Source: Candidatus Thiovulum imperiosus
Lineage (GTDB): Bacteria > Campylobacterota > Campylobacteria > Campylobacterales > Thiovulaceae
Reading direction: 5' to 3'
DNA length: 64,000 nt
Assembly (NCBI GenBank): GCA_024281175.1
Contig: JAMJTW010000014.1
Span: forward strand, 62,001-126,000
Made by a program: the position numbers and the translations under genes. Below the pieces are notes generated by a model, which searched no databases, was not told the origin of the DNA, and saw only the letters and a list, made by a program, of their open reading frames with translations. Shown here in pieces: positions 955-59,368 of this stretch (positions within the stretch are counted from its first letter, which is position 1; the number at the start of each line of letters is the position of its first letter).

Positions 955-2388
955 ATGATAGGTTGGATGCAACATAATAAAAAGTATTTAGTAGTTACTT
1001 TATGGATAAGTGCTTTTGCATTTATAGGTGCAGGATTTGTAGGTTGGGGAAGTTATAGTTATGGAAGTAAAGCTACATCTATTGCAAAAGTCGGAGATGT
1101 AGAAATTAAACTGTCTGAGTTACAGCAAACTTATAGTAATCTTTATGGCTACTACTCTCAAATGTTTGGTGGTCAATTTGATGAAGAACAGGCTAGAAAT
1201 ATGGGGCTTCAAGAAACAGCATTCAACATGTTAAAAAGAGAAGCATTACTATTAAATGTAGCTAAAGATTTTGGACTAATAGTATTAGATAAAGAAATAG
1301 CAGAACATATATTAAATACAAAAGATTTTCAACAAGATGGAAATTTCAGTAGAGAACAGTATGAATTTGTTCTTAAAAATAGTGGAATGACTCCTAAAGA
1401 GTATGAAGGTAGAATTTCAAAAGTTATACTAATTACAAAACTTCAAAAACTGTTAAAAATTGATGTCACTCCTTTGGAAAAAGAGATATTCAACTCTTTG
1501 ACAAAATTAGAAGACAAGTTAGAGTATAAAGTTCTAAGTTTTTATGATGTTGAAGTTTCTGTAACTGATGATGAGGTGATTTCTGCTTGGGAACTTACAA
1601 AAGAGAAATATAAAACTGATGAGAAATATAAGATTTCCTATATAGAGACTCCTTTAATTGAAAAAGATATTAACGATAGTGAAATTGAAGAGTATTACAA
1701 CACTCACGCATTGGATTATAATGGTCTTTTTGAAGATGTTAAAGAGGAAATTAGAGAAGATATCTTAAAAGATGCAACAAAAAATAGTGCTTTAAAAGAG
1801 TATCTTGCATTTAAAAAAGGTGAATATAGTGATGAGGTTTTCTCTGATGAAATTGGAAGCATAAATTTACTTCTCTCTTTAGAAGAGATGGAAAAACTCA
1901 AAGGTTCTGAAGTAGGAAGTTATTTAAAACCAGTTTTTTCTGGAAACAGATTTGTATCTATAAAACTTGAAGAGATAGTTTCTCCACAACTTGAAAAATT
2001 TGAAGATGTAAAAGATATTGTGGAAGCAGAATTAGAGTTTCAGAAAAAAGAAGATAAACTTATGGAAATTGCAAAAAGTGATTATAAAACATTCCAAGGC
2101 ACAGAGAGTGGTTTTATAAAAATTTCTGATATAGATAAAATCGATGGACTTTCACCTGAAGATGCTAATACATTCTTAGGCGATGTATTTACACAACCTG
2201 TAAATAACGGTTTTGTTAAAGTTAATTCTAATGTTGTTCTTTATAGAGTATTAGAACAGAGAGTTGGGGAAAATAAGATAGATATTGAAACTTCTACAAT
2301 TTTAAATATTAAAGAGCAGTTATTAGATGAAAATCTGATTAAGAAACTGGAATTTTATTATCCAGTAGAAACCTATTTTAAAGGATAA
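955..2388 (+). CDS. PpiD/SurA-type membrane-anchored periplasmic chaperone
   Basis: A 477-residue protein with a short cytoplasmic start, one membrane segment at about residues 11-34 and a long periplasmic domain. The region after the anchor (VGDVEIKLSELQQTY...) is the SurA/PpiD N-terminal chaperone fold (SurA_N_3). The central parvulin domain is weakly conserved, so catalytic prolyl isomerase activity is uncertain. Family members help newly exported outer-membrane and periplasmic proteins fold at the inner-membrane surface. The start is well supported by AAGGA at 942-946. It ends 4 bp before ftsA, so the two are probably cotranscribed. Helicobacter has the same gene order of a PpiD-like protein followed by ftsA and ftsZ. 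Confidence 0.78.
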   Translation: MIGWMQHNKKYLVVTLWISAFAFIGAGFVGWGSYSYGSKATSIAKVGDVEIKLSELQQTYSNLYGYYSQMFGGQFDEEQARNMGLQETAFNMLKREALLLNVAKDFGLIVLDKEIAEHILNTKDFQQDGNFSREQYEFVLKNSGMTPKEYEGRISKVILITKLQKLLKIDVTPLEKEIFNSLTKLEDKLEYKVLSFYDVEVSVTDDEVISAWELTKEKYKTDEKYKISYIETPLIEKDINDSEIEEYYNTHALDYNGLFEDVKEEIREDILKDATKNSALKEYLAFKKGEYSDEVFSDEIGSINLLLSLEEMEKLKGSEVGSYLKPVFSGNRFVSIKLEEIVSPQLEKFEDVKDIVEAELEFQKKEDKLMEIAKSDYKTFQGTESGFIKISDIDKIDGLSPEDANTFLGDVFTQPVNNGFVKVNSNVVLYRVLEQRVGENKIDIETSTILNIKEQLLDENLIKKLEFYYPVETYFKG

Positions 2389-2392
2389 GGGC

Positions 2393-3937
2393 TTGGAGAG
2401 TACTAGCAAACTTCTGGCAATAGATATTGGTTCAACAAAAGTTTGTGCGATTATTGCAGAGGTTAGAGGAGATGATGTTAGACTTATTGGAGCTGGAGTT
2501 GAAAAATCTCAAGGCTTAAAAAAGGGTTCTATTACAAATATAGAGTTAGCCGCTCGTTCTATAAAATCTGCTTTTGAGAATGCTAAAAGAGTTGCAGGTG
2601 CTTTTGATACAAATGCCATTGTCTCTATTTCTGGTGCATTAACCAAAGGTATTGATAGTCATGGAATTGTAAATGTCCCAAATGGAGAGATTACAATTGC
2701 AGAAATTAAAAGAGTTATGCAAACTGCTCAGTACAATGCTCAAATACCTTCAGATTATGATATCTTACATGTTCTACCATACAATTTTAAAGTTGATGAA
2801 CACGACTATGTTGAAGACCCTTTAGGAATGAATGCTTCAAGATTAGAAGCATTTGTCCATATAATTATAACTCCAAAGTCAAATTTTAATAACTTGAAAA
2901 GAGCAGTGGAATCTGCAAACTTGAAAGTTTCAAAAATTGTATTAGATAGCTACGCTTCTTATATCTCTACTGTCAATGATGATGAGAAAAATCTGGGTTG
3001 TGCTGTTATAGATTTAGGTGGAGATACAAGTTCATTTGTAATTCATGCTGCTGGAAACTCTATTAGACATGCTGGTTTTTTAGCAGTTGGTTCAACACAT
3101 ATTACAAATGACTTATCTATGGCTTTACACACACCTGTATATATTGCTGAGAAAGTTAAAATAACTTATGGAAATTTGAATTTCTTTAGTGATGACCTCA
3201 TCGAACTTCCAGTTATAGGAGATGAGAATTCTACTCATGAGGTCTCTTTAGATATTGTTGGACAAGTTATTCATGCTAGAACAACAGAAACGCTAGAGCT
3301 TATTGAAGAGCATATTAATAATAGTGGACTTAGAAGAGATGTTGGTGCTGGTTTTGTTTTAACAGGAGGATTAACAAAACTTGAGGGTGTTCGAGAGTTA
3401 GCTATGAATATTTTTCAAGCTCCTGTTAGACTTGCCAAACCGATAGATATAAGTGGACTGTTTAATGACTTGAAAGACCCATCTTTCTCTTCAACAATAG
3501 GTCTTATGCTGTATTCAACAGGAAACTACTCTCTGTATGAATTTGACTCAAATGGAGATATGCTTTACAATGAAGATAGTGTTGAAGAACAGAGAGTAAC
3601 ATCAAGAGATGTCTCTTTAAGTGATATTGGTCCAGGCTCTTTAGGAGGTGTAAGTCGAGCTAGACAACCTGTACAACCTCCGCAACCAACTATGCCCCAA
3701 CCAAATATGCCTCAACCACCTCAATATAGTGGAAGAACAAATCAGCCTCCAAATAGAGTGCAACAGCCAAATATAGGAAATAGTGGCTCATTTGGTGGAA
3801 TTCAACCAATCGAAAATGAGTTACCAAATAATAACTACTATCAAAATGTACAGTTGAATAAAAAAAGTGGAGATAAAAATCAGAATGAAAATAGCCAACT
3901 CTCAAAGTTATGGCAATGGGTAACACAATTATTTTAA
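2393..3937 (+). CDS. ftsA: Cell division protein FtsA
   Basis: Actin-fold ATPase that tethers FtsZ to the inner membrane and recruits the divisome. The 514-residue product has the phosphate-1 loop (AIDIGSTKVCAII, residues 9-21), the family-specific 1C domain, phosphate-2 (VIDLGGDTSSFVI) and the adenosine motif (VLTGGLTKLEGV). After the fold there is an unusually long linker, about residues 425-500, rich in Pro, Gln and Asn. It ends in a C-terminal amphipathic helix, LSKLWQWVTQLF, the expected membrane-targeting sequence. The start is TTG at 2393, right after an AAGG box at 2381-2384 and only 4 bp beyond the upstream stop. ftsZ follows after 14 bp. Confidence 0.97.
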   Translation: MESTSKLLAIDIGSTKVCAIIAEVRGDDVRLIGAGVEKSQGLKKGSITNIELAARSIKSAFENAKRVAGAFDTNAIVSISGALTKGIDSHGIVNVPNGEITIAEIKRVMQTAQYNAQIPSDYDILHVLPYNFKVDEHDYVEDPLGMNASRLEAFVHIIITPKSNFNNLKRAVESANLKVSKIVLDSYASYISTVNDDEKNLGCAVIDLGGDTSSFVIHAAGNSIRHAGFLAVGSTHITNDLSMALHTPVYIAEKVKITYGNLNFFSDDLIELPVIGDENSTHEVSLDIVGQVIHARTTETLELIEEHINNSGLRRDVGAGFVLTGGLTKLEGVRELAMNIFQAPVRLAKPIDISGLFNDLKDPSFSSTIGLMLYSTGNYSLYEFDSNGDMLYNEDSVEEQRVTSRDVSLSDIGPGSLGGVSRARQPVQPPQPTMPQPNMPQPPQYSGRTNQPPNRVQQPNIGNSGSFGGIQPIENELPNNNYYQNVQLNKKSGDKNQNENSQLSKLWQWVTQLF

Positions 3938-3951: not shown

Positions 3952-5328
3952 GTGTCATATAATATAAATATTAAAGAAGTTTTAAGTGAAGAGCCTAGTG
4001 GTGCTAAGATAAAAGCCATAGGAGTTGGTGGCGGTGGTGGTAACATGATTGACCACATGATAAAAAGCAGTATTTCAGGAATTGAACTAATTGTTGCAAA
4101 TACTGATGCCCAAGTTTTAGAAAAATCTCTTTGTGAAAATAAAGTTCAACTTGGTGAAAAAATAACTAAGGGTCTTGGTGCTGGAATGCAACCAGAAATT
4201 GGTGGACAGTCAGCAGAAGAGAGCAAAGATGAAATTAGAGAATACCTTGAAGGTGCTGATATTGTCTTTATTGCAGCAGGATTAGGTGGAGGAACAGGAA
4301 CAGGAGCATCACCTGTTATTGCACAAATTGCCAGAGAAATGGGTGCTTTAACAATCTCAGTTGTAACTAGACCTTTCTCTTTTGAAGGTGGAAGAAGAAG
4401 CAAAGTAGCACTTCAAGGACTTGAAGAGTTAAAGAAACAGAGTGACTCAATTGTTGTAATTCCAAATGACAAACTTCTTCAAACAGTTGAGAGAAATGTT
4501 GGGATTAAAGATGCCTTTAAAATTGTAGATGATGTTCTCTCAAGAGCTGTTGTTGGGGCAAGTGGTATTATTTTGGGTAGTGGTGAAAATGATATTAATC
4601 TTGACTTTGCAGACTTACGAACAGTTATGAGTCATAGAGGTCTTGCACTTATGGGTATGGGAGAAGCTGAAGGTGAAAAATCAGCTTATGAAGCAATCAA
4701 AAGTGCAATTGAGTCTCCCTTGCTTGATAACATTTCAATAAATGGAGCAATGGGAGTTCTTGTTCACTTCTCAACTCATCCAAACTATCCTCTTGCAGAA
4801 ATGAATGATGCTATGGAGATAATTAGAGAAGCGGCAGACCCAGATGCAACTATTATTTTTGGAACAAATACAGACCCTGAAGTTCCAGACAATTTTGTAA
4901 AAATAACTCTTATTGCAACAGGATTTGAGAGAATTGATGAGAAGAAAGCAAGTAGTGGTGTGACAAAAAAAGAGGGACCTCCAAAAAAAGACCCGTTTAT
5001 TACACGAACAACAACTCGTCCAACAGCTCATCAAATTGAGAAAGAAGTTCCAAAACCTGAGCCTATGCCAACACCTACACCAACTCCACAAGAGAGTAGT
5101 TATGAAGCTCCAGCTCAAAACAGCTCTTTTCCTCCACCACAATCTAATTTTCCTCCAAGACCTCATCCAACAGGCGGTTTAGGTAGTGGTATAAATAGAC
5201 ATTCTTCTCCTTTTCCACAAAGAAGTCAAACTGGCAATAGAACAGGTGGTTTTGGTAAAAATGATAGAGGCAATGGTGATGAATATTTAGATATACCAAC
5301 TTGGCTTAGAAATCGAGGAGGAAAATAG
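3952..5328 (+). CDS. ftsZ: Cell division protein FtsZ
   Basis: Tubulin-like GTPase that forms the Z ring at the division site. The product is 458 residues. An N-terminal glycine-rich strand (GVGGGGGN, about residues 24-31) and the tubulin signature [10 protein letters not shown] (about 115) form the GTP site. NPDATI-type T7 residues appear as [11 protein letters not shown] Pro-rich linker of about 90 residues leads to the C-terminal peptide [16 protein letters not shown], the conserved FtsA/ZipA-binding tail. The start is GTG 3952, with GGAGA at 3941-3945. It follows ftsA by 14 bp, the usual pair. Confidence 0.98.
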
Positions 5329-5753: not shown

Positions 5754-8003
5754 CTAACCAGCAGCATCTGCATCATCATGATATCTCGCTTTATACAATA
5801 GAAGTGTCTTTCTTAAAAGATATGTTAAAAGTACAATTACAAATAGAGATATAAAGAGAAATAGAATTGGATTATTAGAGATGTAAAAATAGAATTGGGA
5901 AACTTTACTTAAATTTCCTATAAAATAGTCATCTTTTATATTGAAGTTGAAAATTTCTCTCTGCTCTTCAGTAGCAAGTTTAGAAACTACTAAATCGCCT
6001 CTAATTTTGTGTCGAAATTTGGAGTCTAAAATCTGTTTCAACTCTTTTTTAATATTTCCATCTTGTCCAGAAAACATGAGTACTGTTTTATCATTGTGAA
6101 AAGGAGATTGGAAAAATTGTGTTACAAGATATTCGCTATTTTGAGTTGTCTCAAAAGTTCGAATAAATCTCTCTCTATCTTCTAAAGACTCTGCCACATC
6201 TCTCTCTTCCAACTCTTCTAAAGTTTCAGCAAACCTGTTTGAGAGGTCTATATCTCGAACATATCCTTGAGAGTCTAAAATTAGAGGGGCATTTTCATAA
6301 ATCTCTTTAAACTCTTCATTATAAGTTCCAACCATAATTATATTTTTCTCTTTACCCTCTTCTAAATCTGAACGAACTTCCATATAGTATGGAGGATATT
6401 TCACACTCTCTCCAAGAAAACGAGCTATCTGCATAAGAGCTTCAATTGTGTGACTCTTTTTATCTGTTAATAAGAAAAGAGTATCTTGTAAATCTGGATA
6501 GATAGAGTAGGGAAAAGCTGATGAGATAAAATCTTTCAAGTCTGCCATTGCTATCCAGTGTTGAGCTTCTGGTATCTCAAAATAGGACTCTTTTAAAACA
6601 GTGGCTTTTAGAGACTCAGGGTTCCAGCCCATCGGTATCATTTTAAGTTGGACAGATAACTTATTCTTTCCACCTTTGAGTAAATCTGCTGGATAGCGAC
6701 TTGAAGTTTTAGAGTCCATCATCAGATAGCTTTTAAGAGTTTGAGAGTCTTTCTCTTCTAACATCTTAACTTGAGAGACAAAGACATCATTTATAAAAAC
6801 ATTTGCAATAGACTCTTCTGTAACAGCAATTGGAAATATGTAATCAACATATATGTCACCTTTCTCCTTTTTTGGAAAGAAAAGGTCAGGATAGAGTTTA
6901 AATTCTAAATCTAAAGGTGGTGTGAAGAAACCACTAAAAGTTTTGGTCTCATATCCCAAATCACTAAAACTTATCTTTTGACCACTACCAACAAACTCTG
7001 GAGAAGAGTAAGGTTTAGCCTTTTTTGGATATAAAATATCTTTAATAATTTTGCTATTTCCAGAGTTCAAGTTCATGTCAAGTCCAAAAGTTGAAAAGAG
7101 AACTTTTTTAAGTTTCTCTTCACTTTTTGCTGTAATAATGATGATAGCAAGAGTTTTGTCTTTTGGGTTTCGATATATATTTACATTTCCTCGAATTTGA
7201 AAACCGAAACCGTTTTTATCAAAAATCTCTTTCAATTGGTCAGTGGTAGCAATTATAAGATTGTCTCTATCAAATTTAAATTCTCCATTAGAAACTGTAA
7301 AATCTATTTGACGATATTGAAGTATCTTTCCAAGAACAGAAGAGAAGAAAGCGTAGTTGTAAATAGTTTTATCTTCCATATTTGGAAAGACATAATTTAT
7401 TCTCTGTTCAACAGGATTATAGATATCAAATACTCGACCAATAAGAGAAGACAACTCTTTTGGAATTTCCCTTTTTTCAACTTCTAACTCAACAAAACTA
7501 TCTTCCAAATTTATTTGAGTCCAAACTTCAGGTGCTGAAGTCATATCCTCTTTTCGAGTTGCAAAGTAGTGTTGGTATAACTGAATTGAGAATAGGTTGT
7601 GTTTTTCCATTCTCTCATGAGGAATTTTCAACATTACAGTTTTTTCACCATCATCAACATACTTATTTTCAATGAGTTGATACTGTTTAAGCGTATAGTC
7701 ATGGAGTTTAATAGCTAAAAAAGAGCGTTCCTCTTCAAGAGCAATAGAGGGAGTATAGTGAATTTCAGCTCTAGCTCCTAAAACTTTCCAGCGATTTGCA
7801 ACTGGCAAATCTATTGAAAAAGAGGGTGAAACACCAGATAGTAGGACTTGATTTTGAGAACTGTTTTCATGATTTAGATAAATTCTAATATATTTACTCT
7901 CATCTGATGAGGTTCTTGGAACAATACCATCTCGATATATCTTTATCTGCTCAGAAAATAGAAGTATAGGAAATAGAATAAAAAATAGATTTCTGATTTT
8001 CAA
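5754..8003 (-). CDS. BcsB-family periplasmic polysaccharide synthase subunit
   Basis: A 749-residue protein with a signal peptide (about residues 1-18), a large periplasmic region and a single C-terminal membrane anchor (about 710-735) followed by a basic tail. Repeated carbohydrate-binding jelly-roll and flavodoxin-like segments match the cellulose synthase regulatory subunit family (BcsB). In known systems BcsB pairs with the BcsA glucosyltransferase and conducts the nascent beta-glucan across the periplasm. No bcsA, bcsC or bcsZ lies nearby. The start is TTG 8003, with only a weak AGAAAAA upstream. The reverse neighbour ruvX follows after 9 bp, so the pair is likely one transcript. Confidence 0.8.
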   Translation of the reverse strand: MKIRNLFFILFPILLFSEQIKIYRDGIVPRTSSDESKYIRIYLNHENSSQNQVLLSGVSPSFSIDLPVANRWKVLGARAEIHYTPSIALEEERSFLAIKLHDYTLKQYQLIENKYVDDGEKTVMLKIPHERMEKHNLFSIQLYQHYFATRKEDMTSAPEVWTQINLEDSFVELEVEKREIPKELSSLIGRVFDIYNPVEQRINYVFPNMEDKTIYNYAFFSSVLGKILQYRQIDFTVSNGEFKFDRDNLIIATTDQLKEIFDKNGFGFQIRGNVNIYRNPKDKTLAIIIITAKSEEKLKKVLFSTFGLDMNLNSGNSKIIKDILYPKKAKPYSSPEFVGSGQKISFSDLGYETKTFSGFFTPPLDLEFKLYPDLFFPKKEKGDIYVDYIFPIAVTEESIANVFINDVFVSQVKMLEEKDSQTLKSYLMMDSKTSSRYPADLLKGGKNKLSVQLKMIPMGWNPESLKATVLKESYFEIPEAQHWIAMADLKDFISSAFPYSIYPDLQDTLFLLTDKKSHTIEALMQIARFLGESVKYPPYYMEVRSDLEEGKEKNIIMVGTYNEEFKEIYENAPLILDSQGYVRDIDLSNRFAETLEELEERDVAESLEDRERFIRTFETTQNSEYLVTQFFQSPFHNDKTVLMFSGQDGNIKKELKQILDSKFRHKIRGDLVVSKLATEEQREIFNFNIKDDYFIGNLSKVSQFYFYISNNPILFLFISLFVIVLLTYLLRKTLLLYKARYHDDADAAG

Positions 8004-8071: not shown

Positions 8072-9376
8072 TTGTTTAAAAAGATTTTACCTCTAAATAG
8101 CATTATATTTCTTCGATTTTTTGGTATTTTTTTAGTATTACCACTAATAGCAGTTTACGCCTCTTCTTTAGAGAATTCAACTCCACTTCTTGTTGGAATT
8201 GTTGTAGGAGGATACGCTTTAACTCAAGCAGTTTTCCAAGTTCCATTTGGTGTTTGGAGTGACAGAGTTGGTAGAAAAAGAGTTATTATTTTTGGACTTA
8301 TAATTTTTCTGATAGGTTCTATTATTGCACTTTTTGCAACTGATATTTACACTCTAATTTTGGGTCGTCTTCTCCAAGGTGCTGGAGCAATTGGTTCTGT
8401 TGTAAGTGCTTCAGTTTCAGATGTTGTTCGTGAAGAGGAGCGAGGTAAAGCTATGGCAATTATTGGTGCAACAATTGCTATGGGTTTTGCAATTTCAATG
8501 ATTTTAGGCTCAACAGTTGGAGGCTATTTTGGCGTAGACACTCTTTTTGGAATAACAGCAATTTTTACTGTTCTAGCAATTTATATCGCCATAAAACTTG
8601 AAAATAGCGGAAAAGTTGAAATTCACTATATGAAAAGTAGCAAAAGAGTAAAAGTCTTTGAAAATAGAATTTTGCAATATCTCTTTTTAGCCTCATTTTT
8701 ACAAAAGGGAATCATGGCAATAACTTTTATGGTTGTTCCAATTCTTCTTACACAAACTTTCTTTTGGGATAGAAGTGAACTTTGGCAACTATATATTCCT
8801 GCAATGTTTGTTGGGCTTCTCTCGATGCCAATAGCGATAAAAGTTGGAGAAAAAGGGGGAAAACCGAAAACTGTATTTCTACTCTCCTCTTTTCTTTTTA
8901 TAGTTACTTCAGTACTTTTAACTTTTGGAAATAGCGAGATTTTTATCATAACTTCTCTCTTTGTATTTTTCATCGCATTCAATTTAATAGAACCACTAAT
9001 TCAATCGATGGCAAGTAAATCCACCAAAGTAGATGAGAAAGGAAAAGCTCTTGGATACACAAACTCTTTCGCCTATTTTGGAACTTTTGTTGGAGGAACT
9101 ACCTCAGGAATATTTTTAGATGTTGGAAGTTTGGAGATATTTGGATACCTCATCACCACTTTTTCAGTAGTATGGTTTTTGTGGACTTTAAAAATTGTAA
9201 ATCCAGTTCCAAAAGGAAATATATATCTTAAACACTCCAACTTTTTACAGCAGAAATTGGAAAGAGGTGATATAGATGCTATAAGTGAATGGTATTTAAA
9301 TGTTAGTGAAGCACTATTAGTTGTGAAGTTTGATAAAACAAAATATTCAGAAGAGGATATTAGAAAGTATTTGTAA
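8072..9376 (+). CDS. MFS drug-type exporter (DHA1 / YajR-like)
   Basis: A 434-residue major facilitator superfamily transporter with 12 predicted membrane helices. The cytoplasmic loop 2-3 signature appears as SDRVGRKR (residues 63-70), and the motif GRLLQGAGAIGSV after helix 4 is typical of drug:proton antiporters. A soluble tail of about 55 residues after helix 12 (ending ISEWYLNVSEALLVVKFD...) resembles the C-terminal YAM domain of YajR, which is an inference. The start is TTG 8072, preceded by AAAGGA at 8061-8066. It is divergent from bcsB with 68 bp between. The substrate is unknown. Confidence 0.85.
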   Translation: MFKKILPLNSIIFLRFFGIFLVLPLIAVYASSLENSTPLLVGIVVGGYALTQAVFQVPFGVWSDRVGRKRVIIFGLIIFLIGSIIALFATDIYTLILGRLLQGAGAIGSVVSASVSDVVREEERGKAMAIIGATIAMGFAISMILGSTVGGYFGVDTLFGITAIFTVLAIYIAIKLENSGKVEIHYMKSSKRVKVFENRILQYLFLASFLQKGIMAITFMVVPILLTQTFFWDRSELWQLYIPAMFVGLLSMPIAIKVGEKGGKPKTVFLLSSFLFIVTSVLLTFGNSEIFIITSLFVFFIAFNLIEPLIQSMASKSTKVDEKGKALGYTNSFAYFGTFVGGTTSGIFLDVGSLEIFGYLITTFSVVWFLWTLKIVNPVPKGNIYLKHSNFLQQKLERGDIDAISEWYLNVSEALLVVKFDKTKYSEEDIRKYL

Positions 9377-10266: not shown

Positions 10267-10557
10267 CTACTCAATAATTTTTGGAACAAAGAATGAGTTC
10301 TCTTCGCGATGAGGTGCATTTTCCAAAATAGAGTTTGGAACTTCTTCATTTTTAAGTGGCTTGTCATCTCTAAGATGAGCTTCTATATCTCTCATAATAA
10401 ATTTGTCTGGCAGTCCAGCTGTATCAACACTCTGAAGATTTTCAACAAAATTCAAAATTCGACTTAGTTCTTCTTCAACATCTGCTCTTTTTGAACTCTC
10501 AATTTCAAGATAGGAGAGTTTCTCTAACTTTTCTAAAAGAGTATCATCTATATTCAT
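10267..10557 (-). CDS. gatC: Aspartyl/glutamyl-tRNA amidotransferase subunit C
   Basis: A 96-residue subunit that stabilises the GatCAB complex, which converts Glu-tRNA(Gln) and Asp-tRNA(Asn) to the correctly charged forms. The family pattern is clear: LEKLSYLEI near the start, a central helix ELSRILNFVENLQSVDT, then LRDDKP and a C-terminal NAPHREENSFFVPKIIE. GAGG lies at a good distance upstream of ATG 10557. gatA and gatB are not in the window. It is followed closely by ccdA and is divergent from the defence operon at 10.7 kb. Confidence 0.95.
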   Translation of the reverse strand: MNIDDTLLEKLEKLSYLEIESSKRADVEEELSRILNFVENLQSVDTAGLPDKFIMRDIEAHLRDDKPLKNEEVPNSILENAPHREENSFFVPKIIE

Positions 10558-10592: not shown

Positions 10593-10707
10593 GTCTAAAA
10601 GTAGAACCAAAATTGCTCTTTGTTATTTCAAAGGGTTGGCAATAACGATTTTATCATCTTTTACTTTTATTTAAGTAAAATAGTGAAAATTGTTTAGGAT
10701 AGTTAAA

Positions 10708-12408
10708 ATGGAGGCTACTGAAAAGAAATTCATAGAATTTTTGAAAGAGCAACAAGAGAAAAAATTACTAATTCCAATTTATCAAAGAGCTTATGAATGG
10801 ACAACAAAAAAAGATAAAGAAGTTCAAACTCTTTGGGAAGATATTGAAAACATAGAAGATGAGAACTCAACTCATTTTATAAACTCTATTGTTTATATTG
10901 CTGATGAGCAGAATAGCGTATATATAAATATAATTGATGGTCAGCAGAGAATTACAACACTCTCTATTCTCTATATTGTAATTCGGGATAGATTAGTAAA
11001 GTTACAAAAAGAGAAAAAATTCAAAATGTTTCTTGAAGATATTAAAATAGTTCAAGAGCAAATTGAAGAGAACTATCTAATTAGAAAGTGGCAAAAAGGA
11101 GATGATAAAGTTCGCTTATCTCTATCAAACAAAAATAAAGATAGAGAAATCTACAATAAATTGGTTCTCGGTGAGTATAAAAACCTATCAATTTCCAAAG
11201 ATAAAAATTCAAATCTTATAAAAACCTACAAATTTTTCAATAGTTCTCAAAAGATAAGTAGCTACTCTTTTGAAGAGATACAAACCCTGCTTTCCAAAAT
11301 AGAGAGAGTTGTAATTGTTAAAGTTACTCTTGAACTTGAGAAAGATAATCCTCAAATTGTATTTTCAAGTATACATGGTGGTTTAAAACTTAAAGATACA
11401 GACCTCATCAAAAACTCTATCTTTATGAAATTAGAGAGAGTAGAGCAAGAAAAACTTCATTCAGAACTTTGGGAGACTTTGGAATATGATATGAGTGAAA
11501 AAGAGTTTGCTATTTTTATAAGCTACTTTCTCACTTTAAAACTAAATCGAGTTGTCTCCAGCAATGCTATTTACGATGAATTTGTAAATAAATATTTCAA
11601 GAATTTTTTGGCCGAAAATGAATTTGAGAAAGTTCAAAATGTGCTACTTGAAATAAGTTCATATAAAGATATTTTTCTTCAATTGAAAAATGGTTCTATT
11701 TTTGAAGAACTCTCTATTCTTCCTTACTTCAATATAGAAGCCTACTTCCCTTTCTTGATGAAAATTAGAAAAGAAGAGAGTCCTTTCTTTACAAAGATTT
11801 GGAAAATTATAGAGAGCTTCTATGTTAGAAGATTTGTTTATGGTCTTCCTCCAGGTGCAACAAAAAATATTTTTGCTCTCCTCTGTAAATATGAAAATAT
11901 AGAAGTTTCACAATTTATAAATTTCTTAGAAGAGAAGAGTAAACAACAGAGATTTCCAAAAAGAGACGAGTTTGAAGAGAGCTTGAGAAATAGAAATCTT
12001 TATGAAGATAATAAAACATCTACTAAAGCTATTCTTTTTGCACTTGAAAAAAGTTTAGATAGTGAGTTTGCTTTAAGTAGAGAGAACTTTGAAGAGTTTT
12101 CAGTTGAACATGTTTTACCACAAGAGTATGAGAAATTAGATAGCTGTTGGAAAGATAACTTTTCAGAAGAAGAGCATAAAAAAGAACTTCACCTTATGAA
12201 AAACCTAACTATTTTAAGAAAAGAGGAAAACTCTTCTGCTGGAATTGGCTGTTTTAAAAGTAAAAAACATATTTACAATAGTAGTGAATTGGCTTTGAAT
12301 GAGAAGATAGCTGATTATGATAGCTGGACAAAGAAAAGTATGGAAGATTACTTAGACAAAGTAGTAGAGTTGGCTTTGAAAAGATGGGAAGACTTAGAGA
12401 ATGTCTAA
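10708..12408 (+). CDS. DUF262-DUF1524 protein, SspE/GmrSD-like restriction nuclease
   Basis: A 566-residue protein with both signature domains. The N-terminal DUF262 has IPIYQRAYEW (about residues 22-31) and the nucleotide-handling motif DGQQR (77-81). The C-terminal DUF1524 is an HNH-type nuclease with EHVLPQ, a downstream N-L-T strand and conserved F-x-x-K residues. In known proteins this architecture is SspE (senses DNA phosphorothioates and nicks DNA) or GmrSD (cuts glucosylated DNA). With dndCDE 5 kb away, the SspE reading is attractive but inferred. ATG 10708, with AGGA at 10696-10699, is preferred to TTG 10690. It is the first gene of a four-gene operon and overlaps the next by 8 bp. 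Confidence 0.88.
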   Translation: MEATEKKFIEFLKEQQEKKLLIPIYQRAYEWTTKKDKEVQTLWEDIENIEDENSTHFINSIVYIADEQNSVYINIIDGQQRITTLSILYIVIRDRLVKLQKEKKFKMFLEDIKIVQEQIEENYLIRKWQKGDDKVRLSLSNKNKDREIYNKLVLGEYKNLSISKDKNSNLIKTYKFFNSSQKISSYSFEEIQTLLSKIERVVIVKVTLELEKDNPQIVFSSIHGGLKLKDTDLIKNSIFMKLERVEQEKLHSELWETLEYDMSEKEFAIFISYFLTLKLNRVVSSNAIYDEFVNKYFKNFLAENEFEKVQNVLLEISSYKDIFLQLKNGSIFEELSILPYFNIEAYFPFLMKIRKEESPFFTKIWKIIESFYVRRFVYGLPPGATKNIFALLCKYENIEVSQFINFLEEKSKQQRFPKRDEFEESLRNRNLYEDNKTSTKAILFALEKSLDSEFALSRENFEEFSVEHVLPQEYEKLDSCWKDNFSEEEHKKELHLMKNLTILRKEENSSAGIGCFKSKKHIYNSSELALNEKIADYDSWTKKSMEDYLDKVVELALKRWEDLENV

Positions 12409-13474
12409 AAATATAGAATATATTAAAGTAGATGATTTAGATTTTGACTTTAAAAATCCGAGATTACCAATTCAAGCAAAAAGTGAAAATGAGATAATAG
12501 AGTGGATGCTTCAAGATGCTTCTATTTTAGAACTTATGTTGGCAATTGGACAGAGTGGTTTTTTTGTTGGTGAAGCAATTTTAGTAGTTCCACAAGGAAG
12601 AAAATATATTGTAATTGAAGGAAATAGACGACTTACAGCTGTAAAGCTCTTAAATTATCCAGAGTTGGCAACTCTTCATAAAAGAAAAGTTAAAGAAATT
12701 TTAAAAGAGACTCAAGAGAGACCAAAAGAGATACCATGTTTAGTTTTTGAGAAGAGAGAAGAGATATTAAAGTATCTTGGGTATAGACATGTTACAGGAG
12801 TTAAATCTTGGGGAGTTTTAGCAAAAGCCAAATACCTTTCTCAACTTCGGGAATATTATAAAAATAAGAGTTTACATGAACAGTCAAGAGAGTTAGCAAA
12901 AGAGATTGGAAGTAAAAGTAATTATGTAAAACGACTTTTGATTGGATATGAGATTTATGAAATTATTGAAGATAATGGCTTTTACAAAATACCAAGACTT
13001 GATAAAACTACTTTCCATTTCAATTACATTGCAGATTTTTTAAACAGAGGAAATATAAATAGATTTGTTGGTGTTGATTTAGATAAAGAAAATCCTTTAG
13101 AAGAAGTAAATGAAGAGAATTTAGAAACTCTTACTCGTCTGTTCTTTGAAAAAAACGACCAAAACAGAAGTCGAGTTTTAGGAAATGGTGATGACTTAAA
13201 AAAATTAAATGAAGTTCTTGGAAATAAAAAAGCTACAAAACATTTTTTAGATGGTGAAAGTTTAGATGATGCTTTTAAAAGTTTAGAAGAGAGTGAAAGT
13301 AGTTTTAGGAATGAGCTTTATGAAGCTAAAAATACTCTTCAAAATGCACAAAGTTATGTTCATAAAATAGAGTATGATGAAAGTTTAATTGAGAATTTAA
13401 AAGAGATTGTAGAAATTTGTAAAAGTTTGAAAAATAGTCTTGAGGATAAGAAAAAAGATGAGTGGGACATTTAG
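12401..13474 (+). CDS. ParB/Srx-fold protein of the defence operon
   Basis: A 357-residue protein whose N-terminal third is a ParB/sulfiredoxin-like domain: the characteristic VIEGNRRLTAVKLL (residues 71-84) corresponds to the G-x-R-R nucleotide-binding motif. The middle is helical, with a possible HTH (KEIGSKSNYVKRLL), and the C-terminal 80 residues look coiled. Some ParB-fold proteins are CTPases, others nucleases; which applies here cannot be told. It overlaps the upstream gene by 8 bp and the downstream gene by 17 bp, so the operon is tight. DndB, the usual dnd partner with a DGQHR motif, is not recognisable here. Confidence 0.8.
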   Translation: MSKNIEYIKVDDLDFDFKNPRLPIQAKSENEIIEWMLQDASILELMLAIGQSGFFVGEAILVVPQGRKYIVIEGNRRLTAVKLLNYPELATLHKRKVKEILKETQERPKEIPCLVFEKREEILKYLGYRHVTGVKSWGVLAKAKYLSQLREYYKNKSLHEQSRELAKEIGSKSNYVKRLLIGYEIYEIIEDNGFYKIPRLDKTTFHFNYIADFLNRGNINRFVGVDLDKENPLEEVNEENLETLTRLFFEKNDQNRSRVLGNGDDLKKLNEVLGNKKATKHFLDGESLDDAFKSLEESESSFRNELYEAKNTLQNAQSYVHKIEYDESLIENLKEIVEICKSLKNSLEDKKKDEWDI

Positions 13475-15253: not shown

Positions 15254-15264
15254 ATATTTTATAA

Positions 15265-15299
15265 AATATTTGAGAGGTATTAGAAACCTCTTAAATATT
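15265..15299. terminator. Long bidirectional terminator after the defence operon
   Basis: AATATTTGAGAGGT (15265-15278), loop ATTAGAA, ACCTCTTAAATATT (15286-15299): 14 pairs with one G-U. A/T-rich arms give a T-rich 3' side in both directions. It sits between the convergent mrr-like and rha-like genes. Confidence 0.8.
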
Positions 15300-15308
15300 G
15301 CAAAAAAC

Positions 15309-16172: not shown

Positions 16173-16267
16173 GTTTTACCTTTCATATATGTAAAGGTTA
16201 AGTTCTTAGATTTAAGATTAGACGGTCAAATCATTATCTTATTTCTTTGAACTATTAAATTTTTAAA

Positions 16268-16287
16268 AGAACACGAATTTTTGTTCT
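16268..16287. promoter_or_regulatory. Operator-like dyad between the rha and XRE genes
   Basis: AGAACA (16268-16273), 8-bp spacer, TGTTCT (16282-16287). A short symmetric site between two regulator genes is typical of an XRE or Rha operator. No binding data can be inferred. Confidence 0.35.
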
Positions 16288-16297
16288 GTTGTTGAAA

Positions 16298-16543: not shown

Positions 16544-16608
16544 CATTTGTCCTTTCAAGATAAATTGTAGCAAACATAAGTAAGTGGCGGGAAACTCTTT
16601 TACAAAGT

Positions 16609-17016: not shown

Positions 17017-17029
17017 TAGATAACTCCTT

Positions 17030-17333: not shown

Positions 17334-17349
17334 CATAAAGAGGTTTGAA

Positions 17350-17559: not shown

Positions 17560-17571
17560 ATAGAGATTTAA

Positions 17572-42077: not shown

Positions 42078-50760
<8,683 letters not shown>

Positions 50761-50801: not shown

Positions 50802-51851
50802 CTAGTTCACATCAGGTTTTGGAGTAGTTGAAGTTGAAGCTGGAAGAACTGGATAAGTTACTTCAGGTTTTTCACCCTCTAAAGCACCAAAGAAGGCGAC
50901 AATTTTAGAAACCTCATCATCAGAAAGTTTTATTCCAAGCTGTGTTTCACCCATAATTTTTACAGTTTCAGAAATATCGAAAGTTGCTCCATTATGGAAA
51001 TATGGTGCTGTTTCTAAGATATTTCGAAGAGTTGGAGTTTTTACCATTCCTCCAGCATTGCCTTTAAAATCTCCAAGATTTGCATACTTAAATTCACCAA
51101 TTGCTGGAAATAGTTGCATACTTCCACCAAGAGCTACACCGTTGTGACAAGAAGTACAACCCTTATCGATGAAAATTTCAAGTCCCTCTTTTTCAACACC
51201 AGTCATAGCAGTAGAGTCTCCTTGAATATAGGTATCAAATCGGCTTGGTGTTACAAGAGTTCTCTCAAAAGCACCAATTGCCATAGTTGCTTTCTCATAA
51301 GTAACTTCTGAAGAGCCGAAAGCGTTTTTAAAATCTATAAGATATTCAGGCATAGACTTGATTGTATCAACTACAATTTCTACTGTTGAAGCCATCTCTG
51401 GACCAGCAAGAATTGGACCTTGAGCCTGTTTTTCTAAATCTGGGTCTCGACCGTCCCAAAATTGTCTATCAGCAAAAACTGCATTGTAAACAGTTGGAGA
51501 ATTTAAGTGGTGTGGGTTTGCTGTCCAACCGTGTCCAATTGCAGCAGAAACTCCATCAACTCCACCTGTTGCTAAGTTGTGACAAGTGTTACAAGAGATA
51601 AGATTGCTTTTAGAAATTCTTGGTTCAAAGTAGAGTTTTTTTCCTAACTCTATTTTTGCATCATTTAGTTCATTTCCAACTTTCTCAACAAACTTTTCTG
51701 GAATTGGAAGTAGTCCAGCACTTTTTGCCTTTTCCATAAGAGGTTCAGAAACTTTTGGAGTCTCCTCTTTTGTATCTCCACCTTTTTCAGAACACCCAAA
51801 AGAAGAGAGAAGTAGTAATGCTGTAACAGAACTTAAAGCTATATTTTTCAT
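50802..51851 (-). CDS. Diheme cytochrome c peroxidase lipoprotein
   Basis: Periplasmic enzyme reducing hydrogen peroxide with electrons from cytochrome c. The 349 residues have a lipobox (SFGC), two heme c motifs (SCNTCHN and GCTSCHNG), the MauG/CCP-type helix ELGKKLYFEPRIS and KTPTLRNILETAPYFHNG. A C-terminal Pro/Thr tail follows. The lipoprotein signal suggests membrane anchoring, probably supplied with electrons at the inner or outer membrane. It is a likely client of CcdA-dependent maturation. ATG 51851 is preceded by AGGA. Confidence 0.93.
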   Translation of the reverse strand: MKNIALSSVTALLLLSSFGCSEKGGDTKEETPKVSEPLMEKAKSAGLLPIPEKFVEKVGNELNDAKIELGKKLYFEPRISKSNLISCNTCHNLATGGVDGVSAAIGHGWTANPHHLNSPTVYNAVFADRQFWDGRDPDLEKQAQGPILAGPEMASTVEIVVDTIKSMPEYLIDFKNAFGSSEVTYEKATMAIGAFERTLVTPSRFDTYIQGDSTAMTGVEKEGLEIFIDKGCTSCHNGVALGGSMQLFPAIGEFKYANLGDFKGNAGGMVKTPTLRNILETAPYFHNGATFDISETVKIMGETQLGIKLSDDEVSKIVAFFGALEGEKPEVTYPVLPASTSTTPKPDVN

Positions 51852-51934: not shown

Positions 51935-54670
51935 ATGAAAAAATATTTAGTTTTAGAAGCCAATGCGGGTAGCGGAAAGACATTTTCACTAGTTTCAAGA
52001 TATCTTCATCTTCTTTTTATAGGGGTAAAACCTGAAAAGATATTTGCTTTAACTTTTACAAAAAAAGCTACGAAAGAGATGTATGACAGAGTAATTTCAT
52101 CTCTAAAATATCCAGAGAGTAGTGGTGAGATTTCAAAAATTAGAGAAGAACTTTCCCTATCTGCTGATGAGGTTCTTGAAAAGAGTAGAAATGGTCTCTC
52201 TCTAATTCTCAATTCAGAAATTAAAATTTCAACTATCGATAGTTTTACAAACTCTATTTTAAAAAAGTTCTCTCACTATCTTCAGATACTTCCAAATTTT
52301 CAAGTTGTTGATGAGATAGATAAAAAGAGATTTCATGACATTTTCACTAAAAATTTACATCTCTCTGAAAATAGAGAAGCTCTATATGAAATTGGAAGAT
52401 ATGATAAGAATCTCAAAATAGAAACTGTTTTAGCAGAACTAGAAAATCTTTATAAAAAAGAGATAGAGTTTGAGAGATTTTCAAACCAGATTCGGAATCT
52501 CGAAGTAAATTTAGATAGTAGCTATATTTTGGAACTTGCAAACCTCATCAAAAATTGGTTTAAAGATGGAAATCTCTCAAATAGTGGAAAAAAGGCTTTA
52601 GAATTTAAATATATTTCAGAACTTTTAGAAAAGGGTTGGCTTAAAAAAGAGAAACTTATAGAGTATAGCTACTTTAAAAAAGCGAAACCATCTCCAGATG
52701 TTGAAGCTGTTTTTCAGAAGTTGAAAAGTGAAATTGAAAACTTCTATTCAAGTCGAAATATTTTAGTTCTGCAAAATCTTTTCAAACTCTTTAGATTCTA
52801 CATTTCTGAAAGAGAGAAATTTGTAAAACAGGAGAACAGATTCTCTTTTGATGATTTAAATCATTTTCTTGTAAAACTTCTTTTAGATAGTAGAGTAGAC
52901 TCAAAATTTATCTATTTTCGTTTAGATTCAATAGTTGAACATTTTCTTATTGATGAGTTTCAGGATACAAGTATTTTGCAATATCGAGTGTTAGAACCGC
53001 TGATTTCGGATATTCTTTCAGGTGGTAGTGATAGTGGAAAGAGTTTTTTTTATGTTGGAGATAAGATGCAATCTCTATATCGATTTCGAGGTGGTTTCTC
53101 ATATCTTTTCGATTTTGTTCAGGTGGAAAATCCAACTCTGGAAAAAGAGACTCTGCCAAAAAATTACCGTTCCAAAGATAGTGTTGTAAATTTTGTAAAT
53201 AGGAACTTTTCCACAAAACAGAGTAGTGTAAAAAAGGGTGGATTTGTTAAAGTTAAAGATGTTGAAAACAGTCTTGAGAGTTCTATCTCTGAAGTTCAAA
53301 ACCTCCTTTCAAATGGAGTAGCACCCGAAGATATTGCTGTAATTTGTAATAAAAATAGAGATGTGAACTATATTTCAGAGAGACTTACAGAAGCTGGTAT
53401 TCCAAACTATGCTGAGAGTAGTCTAAGTTTGAGAGAGTATCCAAAAGTTAAAGCGATAATTCAATATTTCCACTTTCTCTATTTCAAAAATAGCTACTAT
53501 CTAAAAAACTTCCAAGCTCTTATTGGTTATCCTCCATACTCAAGATTAGAGAAAATTTTAAATATCTCTCTCAACAAACCTCTTTTTGAAATTGGAATTG
53601 AAGTTGTTCAAAACTTCTCAATTTTTGATGGAGATGAGAATATTTTGAATTTTTTAGACTCTTTAAATAGATACAGAGATATAGATGATTTCATTTTCAA
53701 TCACCATTTTCAAGGTGGAAAAGTTATTTCACCAGAGAGAGATGGTGTTCAAATTTTGACTATTCATAAAAGTAAAGGTTTAGAATTCAAATTTGTCATC
53801 TACACAGATATTATCTCAAAAGGGAGAAGTGGAAAGAGTTTGACTTCCTACTCTGGAGTAGATGTCTCAAAACATATCTGGAGTTTTGGAGAGAAAGAGA
53901 ACTCTCTTTCAGAGACTTTTCAAACAGTAAAAGAGGCAGAAGAGATATTAAAAGAGGAAGATATTCTCAATAGAATGTATGTAGCATTTACAAGAGCTGA
54001 AATTGGACTTATAGTATTAAGAAGTGAAAAGAGTTCATCTCTAAATTATCTGCCAGATTTAGAAACTGGGACTTTTGGAGTAGAGAGTTTTGAAGAGTAT
54101 AGTAGAGTAGAGATTTTAGAAGAGGAAGTTTATGATTTCTATTTTCCAGAAGATGAACCATATTATGGTAGTCAAGCTGAAAGTGTAGAGTTAGAAGAGA
54201 ATTTTGAAATAGATTTTGAGAATTTTCAGAGAGTGGAGTTTGGAACTTTACTTCACTCAACTTTAGAACTTATGGGAGAGTTTTCAAAAGAGGCTCTTGA
54301 AATTGCACTGAAAAATAGTCAAAATCGTTTTGAGATAAGTGAAGTTGAGTTAAAAAGTATAGAAATTAGAATTTTAAAACTTCTTGAGAATTTAGAGTTC
54401 CAAAACCTCATCAGCAATGGAACTCTTTTTAAAGAGAGAGAGTATAGATTTAAAGGGAAAACTTACTACTTAGATTTAATTGTTGATAGTGGTGATGAGG
54501 TTCTTGTTTTCGATTTTAAACTCTCAAAAAACAGAACTCTGCTAGAAAAGTATTGGAAACAGGTTTCCAACTATCTGAAAATAGTGAGTAAGGTGGAAAA
54601 AAAGAGAAGTCGAGGCTTTCTACTCTATCTCCATGAAAACAGCACTATTTTAGAAGAGGTAAAATCTTAA
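51935..54670 (+). CDS. addA: RecB-like helicase-nuclease AddA
   Basis: UvrD/Rep-family helicase with C-terminal nuclease, processing double-strand breaks with AddB. The 911 residues have Walker A ANAGSGKTFS (9-18), motif Ia LTFTKKATKEM, Walker B LIDEFQDTS, motif III GDKMQSLYRFRGG, motif V ILTIHKSKGLEF, motif VI MYVAFTRAE and the nuclease site DLIVDSGDEVLVFDFKLSK near the end. addB is not in the window. The start has no ribosome-binding site, but ATG 51935 directly precedes the conserved N-terminus. Confidence 0.93.
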   Translation: MKKYLVLEANAGSGKTFSLVSRYLHLLFIGVKPEKIFALTFTKKATKEMYDRVISSLKYPESSGEISKIREELSLSADEVLEKSRNGLSLILNSEIKISTIDSFTNSILKKFSHYLQILPNFQVVDEIDKKRFHDIFTKNLHLSENREALYEIGRYDKNLKIETVLAELENLYKKEIEFERFSNQIRNLEVNLDSSYILELANLIKNWFKDGNLSNSGKKALEFKYISELLEKGWLKKEKLIEYSYFKKAKPSPDVEAVFQKLKSEIENFYSSRNILVLQNLFKLFRFYISEREKFVKQENRFSFDDLNHFLVKLLLDSRVDSKFIYFRLDSIVEHFLIDEFQDTSILQYRVLEPLISDILSGGSDSGKSFFYVGDKMQSLYRFRGGFSYLFDFVQVENPTLEKETLPKNYRSKDSVVNFVNRNFSTKQSSVKKGGFVKVKDVENSLESSISEVQNLLSNGVAPEDIAVICNKNRDVNYISERLTEAGIPNYAESSLSLREYPKVKAIIQYFHFLYFKNSYYLKNFQALIGYPPYSRLEKILNISLNKPLFEIGIEVVQNFSIFDGDENILNFLDSLNRYRDIDDFIFNHHFQGGKVISPERDGVQILTIHKSKGLEFKFVIYTDIISKGRSGKSLTSYSGVDVSKHIWSFGEKENSLSETFQTVKEAEEILKEEDILNRMYVAFTRAEIGLIVLRSEKSSSLNYLPDLETGTFGVESFEEYSRVEILEEEVYDFYFPEDEPYYGSQAESVELEENFEIDFENFQRVEFGTLLHSTLELMGEFSKEALEIALKNSQNRFEISEVELKSIEIRILKLLENLEFQNLISNGTLFKEREYRFKGKTYYLDLIVDSGDEVLVFDFKLSKNRTLLEKYWKQVSNYLKIVSKVEKKRSRGFLLYLHENSTILEEVKS

Positions 54671-56757: not shown

Positions 56758-57437
56758 TTAAAATAGGAATTTTAGGAGCGATGACTGAAGAGATAGAGCC
56801 AATTCTTGAGAAGTTAGATTTTAGAGTAGAGGAGTATGGAAAAAATAGATATTACTTTGCTACTTTTTCAAATCATGAACTTGTAATAGCTTACTCTAAA
56901 ATTGGAAAAGTCTTTTCAGCTCTATCAGCTTCAACAATGATAGAGAAATTTGGAGTGGAAACACTGCTCTTTTCTGGAGTAGCTGGAGCAATTGGAGATT
57001 TAAAAATTGGTGATTTGATTTATGCAACAAAACTTGCTCAACACGATTTAGATTTATCACCATTTGGTCACCCTTACGGTTTTGTTCCAGAGGGTTCTGT
57101 TTTTATAAATAGTGATAAAAGTTTGAACCTCATCGCTGATGAGGTAGCTTCAGAGATGGGTGTGAAATTACAATCTGGTGTAATTGCCACTGGAGACCAA
57201 TTTGTTGCAAGTCGAGAAAGAAAAGAGTGGATTGGAAAAACTTTTGGTGCTGATGCTCTTGAGATGGAGGGAGCTTCTGTTGCTACTGTTTGTGATGCTT
57301 TAGATACTCCCTTTTTCATTTTAAGAGCAATTAGTGACTCTGCTGACGGTTCTGCTGAAATAGATTTTGACACTTTTCTAATAGAGTCTGCAAAAATTAG
57401 TGCATCATTTGTAATGAGAATGGTTGAGAAAATTTGA
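56757..57437 (+). CDS. mtnN: 5'-Methylthioadenosine/S-adenosylhomocysteine nucleosidase with ATT start
   Basis: Cleaves MTA, SAH and futalosine-type intermediates. ATG 56781 would delete the conserved GxxGAM strand. An ATT at 56757, 6 bp after AAGGA and overlapping the trmA stop by 1 base, gives (M)[11 protein letters not shown] with the catalytic acid at residue 12, as in E. coli MtnN. Other motifs are [14 protein letters not shown] and ISDSADG. The product is 226 residues. It overlaps smpB by 4 bp (TTGA). In Campylobacterota the enzyme also serves menaquinone synthesis. Confidence 0.88.
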
Positions 57438-57880: not shown

Positions 57881-57972
57881 TGAAATTTCTATTTATAGTA
57901 CTATTTCTCTTTTCTGGGTGTGGATATAAAGCTGACCCTATCTATAAGGAGAAAGAACTTGAAAATATATGA
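57880..57972 (+). CDS. LptM-like 30-residue lipoprotein
   Basis: ATG 57880 overlaps the smpB stop by one base. The peptide is [20 protein letters not shown] followed by ten more residues: a signal peptide, lipobox FSGC and GCGYKADPIY, matching the GCGxKGPLY core of LptM/YifL, the small lipoprotein that assists LptD folding. It is complete at 30 residues. It overlaps the nadB start by 14 bp. The conservation of the motif in the right place makes it a convincing, easily missed gene. Confidence 0.75.
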   Translation: MKFLFIVLFLFSGCGYKADPIYKEKELENI

Positions 57973-59368
57973 TTATATAATAGTTGGAGGTGGAGTTGCT
58001 GGACTCTATTCTGCTCTAAATATTCCAAAAGAGTTGGAAGTTCTTATTATTGTAAAAGATTTTCCTTGGGAGTCAAATAGCTTTTATGCTCAAGGTGGCA
58101 TCTCTGTTGCTAAAGATAGAGAAGATATCTCTTCTCATATTGAAGATACAGTATCTGCTGGAGCTGGAACAGGTAACCTTGAAAATATAGAGATAATGGT
58201 TTCAGATGGTATTGAAGTTATTAATGAACTTATAGAGATGGGTTTAAAATTTGATGTAGATAGCAATGGAAATCTTCTTTTTACAAAAGAGGGAGCACAC
58301 TCTACAAATCGAATTCTCCATCTTGGAGGAGATGCGACTGGAAGATATATGCACTCATTTATGCTCTCTAAAGTATCTCATGAAGTTTGGCATAGTACCG
58401 TTGTTACAGATATCTTAGCTTATGACTCTATCTGTTACGGTGTAACAGTTTGTAGAGATGGAAACAGTGAAAATCTTTATGCTAGAAATACAATTTTAGC
58501 TTCTGGTGGAGTTGGAGATATCTACAAATATCACACAAACGGTAGATCTATTTCTGGAGAAATTCAAGGAATTGCAATTGAGAAAGGTATCTCCTTAAAA
58601 AGTATGGAGATGTTGCAATTTCACCCAACAGTTGTAATTTCAGGAGATGAGTCATCACTTGTGAGCGAAGCAGTTCGAGGTGAGGGAGCAACTATAATTG
58701 ATGAAGATGGAGAACAGTTTGTAGACTCATTACTACCAAGAGATATAGTTAGTAGAGCTATTTTGAAACATAAGAAGAGAGCATTTTTAGACATCTCAAG
58801 ATTTGAAGAGAAGTGGTTCTGGAATAGATTTCCAACAATTGCAAAATTTTTAGATGGAAAAGGGTTTAAACTTACAAAAGAGCCAATTCCAATTTCACCA
58901 GCATTTCATTACGCTATTGGCGGAATTGAGACAGATAGAGATGGAAAGGTTGCAGGTTTTCACAATTTGTATGCTGTTGGAGAGGTTGCTTTTACAGGAG
59001 TTCATGGAGCGAACCGTTTAGCAAGTAACTCTCTTTTAGAAGCTCTTGTTTTTGCAAAAAGAGGTGCTGTAAAAAGTTTAACAGAGAGTAGAAATTTCCA
59101 ATTTAGAGAATTTCCACTATTAAATAGAGAGTGGCAAAAAGAGGGTGATGAGGTTTTAAAAAGGGAACTTCAAAATCTGATGTGGAGATACGCTTCTATT
59201 GAAAGAAGTGGTGTTGGAATTGAGAAAGCCAAAAATAGAGTGGAAGAGATGCTCTCTCTCGATATAGGAAGAAGTTTAAAACTACAACTTTTTACGGCAA
59301 ATCAGATATTGATTTCAGCACTTCAAAATAGAAGTTCTATTGGAGTTCACTATCGAATAGATGTGTAA
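57959..59368 (+). CDS. nadB: L-aspartate oxidase
   Basis: FAD enzyme of NAD synthesis, oxidising aspartate to iminoaspartate. TTG 57959 is chosen because AAGGAG precedes it by 7 bp and the protein then begins KIYDYIIVGGGVAGL; the reading from 57920 lacks a ribosome-binding site. Motifs are SFYAQGGISVA, EGAHSTNRILHLGGDATG, LQFHPTVV, AVRGEGA and GEVAFTGVHGANRLASNSLLEALV. The product is 469 residues. Confidence 0.94.
   Translation: MKIYDYIIVGGGVAGLYSALNIPKELEVLIIVKDFPWESNSFYAQGGISVAKDREDISSHIEDTVSAGAGTGNLENIEIMVSDGIEVINELIEMGLKFDVDSNGNLLFTKEGAHSTNRILHLGGDATGRYMHSFMLSKVSHEVWHSTVVTDILAYDSICYGVTVCRDGNSENLYARNTILASGGVGDIYKYHTNGRSISGEIQGIAIEKGISLKSMEMLQFHPTVVISGDESSLVSEAVRGEGATIIDEDGEQFVDSLLPRDIVSRAILKHKKRAFLDISRFEEKWFWNRFPTIAKFLDGKGFKLTKEPIPISPAFHYAIGGIETDRDGKVAGFHNLYAVGEVAFTGVHGANRLASNSLLEALVFAKRGAVKSLTESRNFQFREFPLLNREWQKEGDEVLKRELQNLMWRYASIERSGVGIEKAKNRVEEMLSLDIGRSLKLQLFTANQILISALQNRSSIGVHYRIDV

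Follow-up and report, generated by a model that had tools for sequence, protein, structure and literature searches.

An exact 8-mer with even spacing on each strand in the genomes of Thiovulaceae, a candidate self-DNA recognition signal

The word and the candidate machinery in the window

The window, a stretch of 64,000 nucleotides from the genome of Candidatus Thiovulum imperiosus, contains 41 exact copies of the 8-mer GATGAGGT, 20 on the plus strand and 21 on the minus strand. The original prediction had counted 40 copies, 20 each way, which was one short. Its statement that the word is strongly over-represented, with only one or two copies due to chance, was correct: 1.41 copies were expected, and the maximum among 100 dinucleotide shuffles was 6. 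Under an order-3 Markov model the word was the top over-represented 8-mer of the window (41 versus 2.3). The plus-strand copies lie at 1570–1577, 1831–1838, 7906–7913, 10308–10315, 13586–13593, 18151–18158, 19070–19077, 20697–20704, 21984–21991, 24556–24563, 35222–35229, 37679–37686, 41159–41166, 44463–44470 (in rpoB), 46470–46477, 49243–49250, 52166–52173 and 54494–54501 (both in addA), 57138–57145, and 59147–59154. The minus-strand copies lie at 3195–3202, 5160–5167, 9147–9154, 11402–11409, 13788–13795, 14494–14501, 15487–15494, 21349–21356, 23280–23287, 25249–25256, 31419–31426, 32735–32742, 36420–36427, 38451–38458, 41004–41011, 47408–47415, 49682–49689, 50911–50918, 52542–52549 and 54405–54412 (both in addA), and 57127–57134, the last of which forms a close inverted pair with the copy at 57138. 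As had been claimed, every copy falls within a gene and several frames are used: all 41 are inside open frames of at least 80 amino acids, and together they occupy five of the six reading frames. The peptides read through them are DEV (19 copies), NLI, DLI, HLI or YLI (14), TSS (3), xPHx (3), and xMRx (2).

Two genes in the window encode proteins that might act on such a word. The gene at 21807–22862 on the minus strand, previously noted as PilT, encodes a PilT-like type IV pilus ATPase (PF00437 T2SSE, E 1e-44), a candidate part of a DNA uptake machine. The gene addA, at 51935–54670 on the plus strand, encodes an AddA/RecB-like helicase (NF010485 RecB-like helicase, 692.6 bits against a cut-off of 650; PF00580 and PF13361), which would be the candidate reader if the word were Chi-like. 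A DndC/DndD-like phosphorothioation system is also encoded within the window; a search of the 5 to 30% sampled from each of four relatives found no DndC/D homologues.

All five Thiovulaceae genomes sampled encode comEC, dprA, HHH_3/ComEA-type proteins, and 7 to 11 prepilin-type proteins, and all five encode an AddB-like PD-(D/E)XK protein. Both candidate machines, competence/pilus and AddAB, are thus encoded. Genes for type IV pili were reported in all Thiovulum strains (PMC9938260), and term searches in that paper found no mention of uptake words. Competence genes occur widely across the phylum, and their presence does not discriminate between explanations. A ComP- or ComN-like receptor was sought among six conserved prepilin-type groups, one of them GspG-like and one weakly GspJ-like; none was consistently basic, and no candidate emerged.

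Distribution, exactness, and flanks of the word

In the whole 2.2-Mb assembly of T. imperiosus (G000; 36 scaffolds, 2.20 Mb), the word occurs 1,565 times, 782 forward and 783 reverse. The reversed word, taken as a control, occurs 204 times (103 and 101 by strand). In 836 kb of this genome there were 582 copies, compared with 32 expected from the Markov model and 22 when the sites were masked. The genome-wide count, which had been proposed as a check, was thus far above the Markov expectation, and the over-representation proved larger than originally described.

Comparison with relatives had been proposed as well. By its rpoB, the source genome belongs to Campylobacterota. The five family genomes span 28 to 37% G+C; we infer that the other four are those of Thiovulum ES (G001), Ca. 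T. karukerense (G002), Ca. T. stygium Movile (G003, a single 1.72-Mb contig of 28.6% G+C), and strain Tui Malila (G004). All five carry the word, with 1,378 copies in G001, 733 in G002, 990 in G003, and 1,239 in G004 in addition to the 1,565 in T. imperiosus, at densities of 0.45 to 1.06 per kb. The excess over a Markov-3 model was 18-fold in G000, 26-fold in G001, 23-fold in G003, 22-fold in G004, and 8-fold in G002. Comparable abundance was absent from the other 195 of the 200 genomes sampled across the order. The highest counts outside the family, 451 (G114) and 503 (G126), came from two genomes of ca. 55% G+C. Base composition was set aside as the source of the word: these two were the sole genomes of the order outside the family whose counts were clearly raised, and in the pieces sampled from them the word was neither outstanding nor a top 8-mer.

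The word is maintained by selection or drive on DNA, because the 565 coding copies in the 836 kb of T. imperiosus compare with 131 ± 11 after synonymous codons were shuffled within genes. Such shuffling accounts for just 23% of the coding copies. In the in-frame DEV class, 303 copies were seen and 120 were expected from the shuffles. In the other frames, 262 were seen versus ca. 10 expected, 6- to >100-fold above the shuffles. Intergenic copies in G003 occur at 1.24 per kb. The earlier claim that selection acts on the DNA rather than on the protein is therefore supported.

One-base variants, which the original prediction had proposed to count together with the word, were not enriched in three well-sampled genomes. 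When all 24 one-mismatch words were pooled, G000 had 564 where 575 were expected, G001 had 200 where 237 were expected, and G003 had 230 where 235 were expected. G002, which has the fewest perfect copies, showed a modest enrichment (129 versus 94). In orthologues of G000 and G001 (63% median identity), 24 of the 86 sites that could be aligned had an identical core, compared with 10% for random 8-mers, and a one-mismatch state was rare (3 of 86, compared with 19% for random 8-mers). Thus, the core behaves as all-or-none: copies are kept whole or lost, and the flanks follow the species. Base −1 is T at 64% and C at 25% of the sites in G000, and C at 75% in G001; base +9 is T at 56% in G000 versus C at 58% in G001; and base +10 is G at 64% of the G004 sites. 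At 12 of the 24 sites shared by G000 and G001, base −1 is T in the former and C in the latter. The flank preferences persist in most reading frames and are most uniform in G001 and G004. Third-position or local-context usage is not their source, as C precedes GATGA in only 11% of the cases in G001 in which the word is not completed. A long interspersed repeat was also rejected, since similarity around the word is lost only a few bases away from the core.

Strand balance, strand-wise spacing, and placement relative to genes

Per-piece strand counts were more balanced than would be expected by chance in all five species. The equal orientation had been taken to argue against a Chi- or KOPS-like strand-biased signal, and a strong replication-strand bias had been named as one result that would speak against uptake. 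No such bias was found: 26 pieces across the G003 chromosome were balanced in orientation whatever their GC skew. A replication-polar signal of the KOPS/FtsK type, directed from origin to terminus, was rejected on the same balance along this chromosome.

Neighboring copies switched orientation in 66 to 78% of steps in the five species (P = 5.5e-14 in G000, 5.5e-10 in G001, 2e-3 in G002, 6.6e-14 in G003, and 1.5e-3 in G004). Alternation is not a trait of any 8-mer, as control 8-mers of G000 switched in 45.6 ± 4.2% of steps. The orientations alternate because copies of the same orientation repel each other. In G000, the ratio of observed to expected same-orientation pairs was 0.24 at 60 to 250 bp, 0.33 at 250 to 500 bp, 0.46 at 500 to 1,000 bp, 0.77 at 1,000 to 1,500 bp, and ca. 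1 beyond, so that the repulsion reaches 1 to 1.5 kb. Opposite-orientation pairs were near a ratio of 1, with a mild surplus of divergent pairs. The repulsion was present within genes and between genes alike and is therefore not a within-gene effect.

When the minus-strand copies were shifted against the plus-strand copies in G000 and G001, the alternation was unaltered. Therefore, the two orientations are independent series, and close inverted pairs are ruled out as the cause of the alternation in these two genomes. In G003, hairpin (close inverted) pairs contribute some extra alternation. The series of each orientation is more regular than random, with a gamma shape of 2.0 to 2.5 and a mean gap of 2.4 to 3.2 kb. 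This even spacing on each strand separately is a new observation.

Copies in sense orientation are placed toward the ends of genes, and those in antisense orientation toward the starts (P = 8e-9), the same gene polarity of two orientations as that described for Pasteurellaceae (PMC2346458). Of the close inverted pairs in G003, 17 of 18 are intergenic; 8 separate convergent genes, whereas no pair separates divergent ones, a placement such as terminators would have. The longest gap free of the word among those sampled in G003, 11.4 kb, is at a ribosomal-protein operon.

Possible roles of the word

These results demonstrate that GATGAGGT is an exact word confined to one family, maintained at the DNA level, and symmetric between the strands, that it has a dialect in each species, and that it is evenly spaced strand by strand. 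Most likely it tags the cell's own DNA for uptake or recombination. By analogy with the known uptake words, we consider it an even proposition that the word forms the core of a signal, spread over the whole genome, by which Thiovulaceae recognize their own DNA and which resembles DUS or USS, probably with a strand-specific step. The weights that we give to this and the competing readings are a matter of judgement, not of calculation. Under the self-recognition reading, a type IV pilus or competence component would prefer DNA that bears the word, ComEC would import one strand, and homologous recombination would fix it, with copies building up until every stretch of a few kilobases held one. Some step would be strand specific, such as choosing which strand is imported or checking the single strand as it enters. 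A further copy in the same orientation would then add nothing, whereas copies in the other orientation would be unaffected.

The uptake interpretation originally proposed is supported in part. The density, the strand symmetry, the dialects, the hairpins formed by inverted pairs in G003, and the gene polarity match those of uptake sequences, and competence and pilus genes are present in all five genomes. The same-orientation repulsion and the lack of a near-miss excess do not match. Uptake in Haemophilus was measured as indifferent to orientation (PMC1939737), and uptake of this kind does not predict repulsion restricted to copies of the same orientation. The lack of near-miss forms and the strand-wise spacing would fit uptake only if one step of it, or of its selection, were strand specific. 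In gonococcus, according to work cited in PMC12061091, one strand is preferred when the DNA supplied is single-stranded.

The USS of Pasteurellaceae (AAGTGCGGT) is like the Thiovulum word in density, strand symmetry, and gene-end polarity. One genome that resembles Pasteurellaceae and carries the H. influenzae word (G457) has 1,270 copies of AAGTGCGGT in 2.0 Mb, or ca. 0.64 per kb. Unlike GATGAGGT, the USS has many one-mismatch forms: an 11-fold excess was tabulated for A. pleuropneumoniae (PMC1939737), and in 48 kb of G457, a small sample, these forms were enriched ca. 2-fold. The orientations of AAGTGCGGT did not alternate in the same 48 kb (12 alternating versus 14 same), nor was same-orientation repulsion of the Thiovulum type seen there, with the low power of 27 sites in both cases.

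The DUS of Neisseriaceae (GCCGTCTGAA and its dialects, with the receptor ComP) is likewise a short nonpalindromic word on both strands within one family, has several dialects around a fixed core (PMC3630211), and forms close inverted pairs that serve as terminators (PMC2397512); for the Thiovulum word, terminator-like pairs were seen only in G003. It differs in that its sequence and phylum are unrelated, no ComP-like receptor was found in Thiovulaceae, and spacing of same-orientation copies only is unreported for DUS in the literature searched. Furthermore, the Thiovulum copies are mostly intragenic in the marine species.

A Chi-like role is possible, although we think it less probable. AddAB, degrading DNA from a break, would read the word one way, stop degrading, and start recombination. 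Because each break has two ends, both orientations would be needed, each regularly spaced. Such a role predicts directly the two independent regular series and the lack of a near-miss excess, both of which were observed, and it would be consistent with the AddA encoded in the window and the AddB-like protein of all five species. Many Chi words are G-rich and lack C on one strand, and one strand of GATGAGGT is likewise G-rich and without C. The original prediction had dismissed both Chi- and KOPS-like signals because of the equal orientation. The dismissal stands for KOPS-like polarity, which is absent. For Chi it is less secure, because a signal read in one direction would be expected to be evenly spaced on each strand independently, and the window itself encodes AddA.

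However, the dialects, the intergenic hairpins, which like dialects are not Chi features, and the missing strand bias are explained less well by a Chi-like role. A leading-strand bias is common among known Chi words, although not strictly required, and is absent for GATGAGGT. Chi of E. coli (GCTGGTGG) resembles the word in being a short, exact, nonpalindromic word, which in Thiovulum would also be directionally read, but it is ca. 3-fold sparser and, in the 600 kb analyzed, was strand-biased and clustered in the same orientation (95 pairs at 60 to 3,000 bp versus 67 expected) instead of being spaced. The spacing of GATGAGGT fits one-way reading, although E. coli Chi itself lacks such spacing. 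For a Chi word, the 18- to 26-fold excess over Markov-3 in four of the five species is also high: E. coli has 1,008 Chi copies where its base composition would give 151 (PMC1939737). No Chi word for Campylobacterota was reported in the literature searched.

We tentatively suggest, while thinking it rather unlikely, that the word represents a genome signal of a new type, one whose reading takes place on each strand separately. An exact word every ca. 2.4 to 3.2 kb per strand might serve strand-selective import, a new mode of self-recognition, or be a combined mark for uptake and recombination, and in either case would be distinct from classical uptake sequences and from Chi. Another strand-specific mark, such as an asymmetric methylation or phosphorothioate site that is read in repair or chromosome organization every few kilobases per strand, appears improbable. 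The strand-wise spacing would suit any single-strand mark, and the DndC/DndD-like system in the window would offer one, but this system was not found in the sampled 5 to 30% of each of four relatives. Known Dnd words are ca. 4 bases long, and to our knowledge modification sites are not usually ca. 20-fold over-represented. Protein usage (D-E-V), codon preference, or an assembly artefact can be set aside as the source of the word: although roughly one in two copies in the window reads as DEV and shuffling retains 120 of the 303 copies in that class, this rival is already refuted by the synonymous-shuffle counts and the spread over frames, the intergenic copies in G003, the enrichment in five independent assemblies, and a spacing unlike that of other 8-mers.

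No prior report of the word, of DNA uptake words in Thiovulum, or of uptake words in Campylobacterota was found in the open-access literature, in which a search for the bare word excludes little. Most knowledge of genomic uptake words comes from two families of proteobacteria (PMC7811141). If the self-recognition reading is true, an independent origin in Campylobacterota would indicate that uptake words evolve repeatedly. Even spacing kept by each strand on its own is something new to observe, and it bears on the question of whether DNA uptake depends on strand or direction. A Chi-like word, in contrast, would be an unusual type of recombination signal for Campylobacterota. Under the uptake reading, if true, the giant, uncultured Thiovulum would gain a defined barrier to gene exchange.

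Placement of GATGAGGT in intergenic DNA and its longest gaps

Intergenic DNA of the cave species Candidatus Thiovulum stygium Movile (G003; species names are inferred) was enriched in GATGAGGT, the proposed 8-bp self-DNA recognition signal, with 1.24 copies per kb versus 0.59 overall (sampled pieces L114-L119 and L146-L165), whereas that of Ca. T. imperiosus (G000) was depleted (0.19 per kb). In G003 the word also forms hairpins with a terminator-like appearance. Among the sampled pieces, the longest stretches lacking GATGAGGT were a ribosomal-protein operon in G003 (L157, 236-11638) and the gene of a giant 2,339-aa protein in G000 (L131, 9605-16621).

GC skew changed sign many times along the sampled pieces of the single 1.72-Mb G003 contig, and thus no clear origin-terminus pattern was visible from it.

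Reduced copy number in Ca. T. karukerense

Perfect copies were fewer in Ca. T. karukerense (L124 and L186-L195), and one-mismatch forms were mildly in excess in this small sample (129 versus 94 expected). This pattern could reflect a system in decay or a dialect in change.

Dispersed repeat and defence island

A second dispersed repeat, with inverted ends GTCATTTCG and CGAAATGAC about 85 bp apart, was found at many G000 loci (window 17068-17160, L089, L099, L100, L131, L137, L145, and others). In sequence it resembles a miniature transposable element.

The window contains a defence island of restriction and phosphorothioation genes (10690-20831), comprising genes for a predicted GmrSD-type IV restriction enzyme (10690-12408), a type IV-like restriction protein (14441-15253), DndC (17572-18834; NCBIfam match above cut-off), and a DndD-like phosphorothioation protein (18776-20461). 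GATGAGGT density in the island was normal, at 9 copies per ~10 kb, which suggests that accessory DNA, too, is a long-time resident of Thiovulum here.
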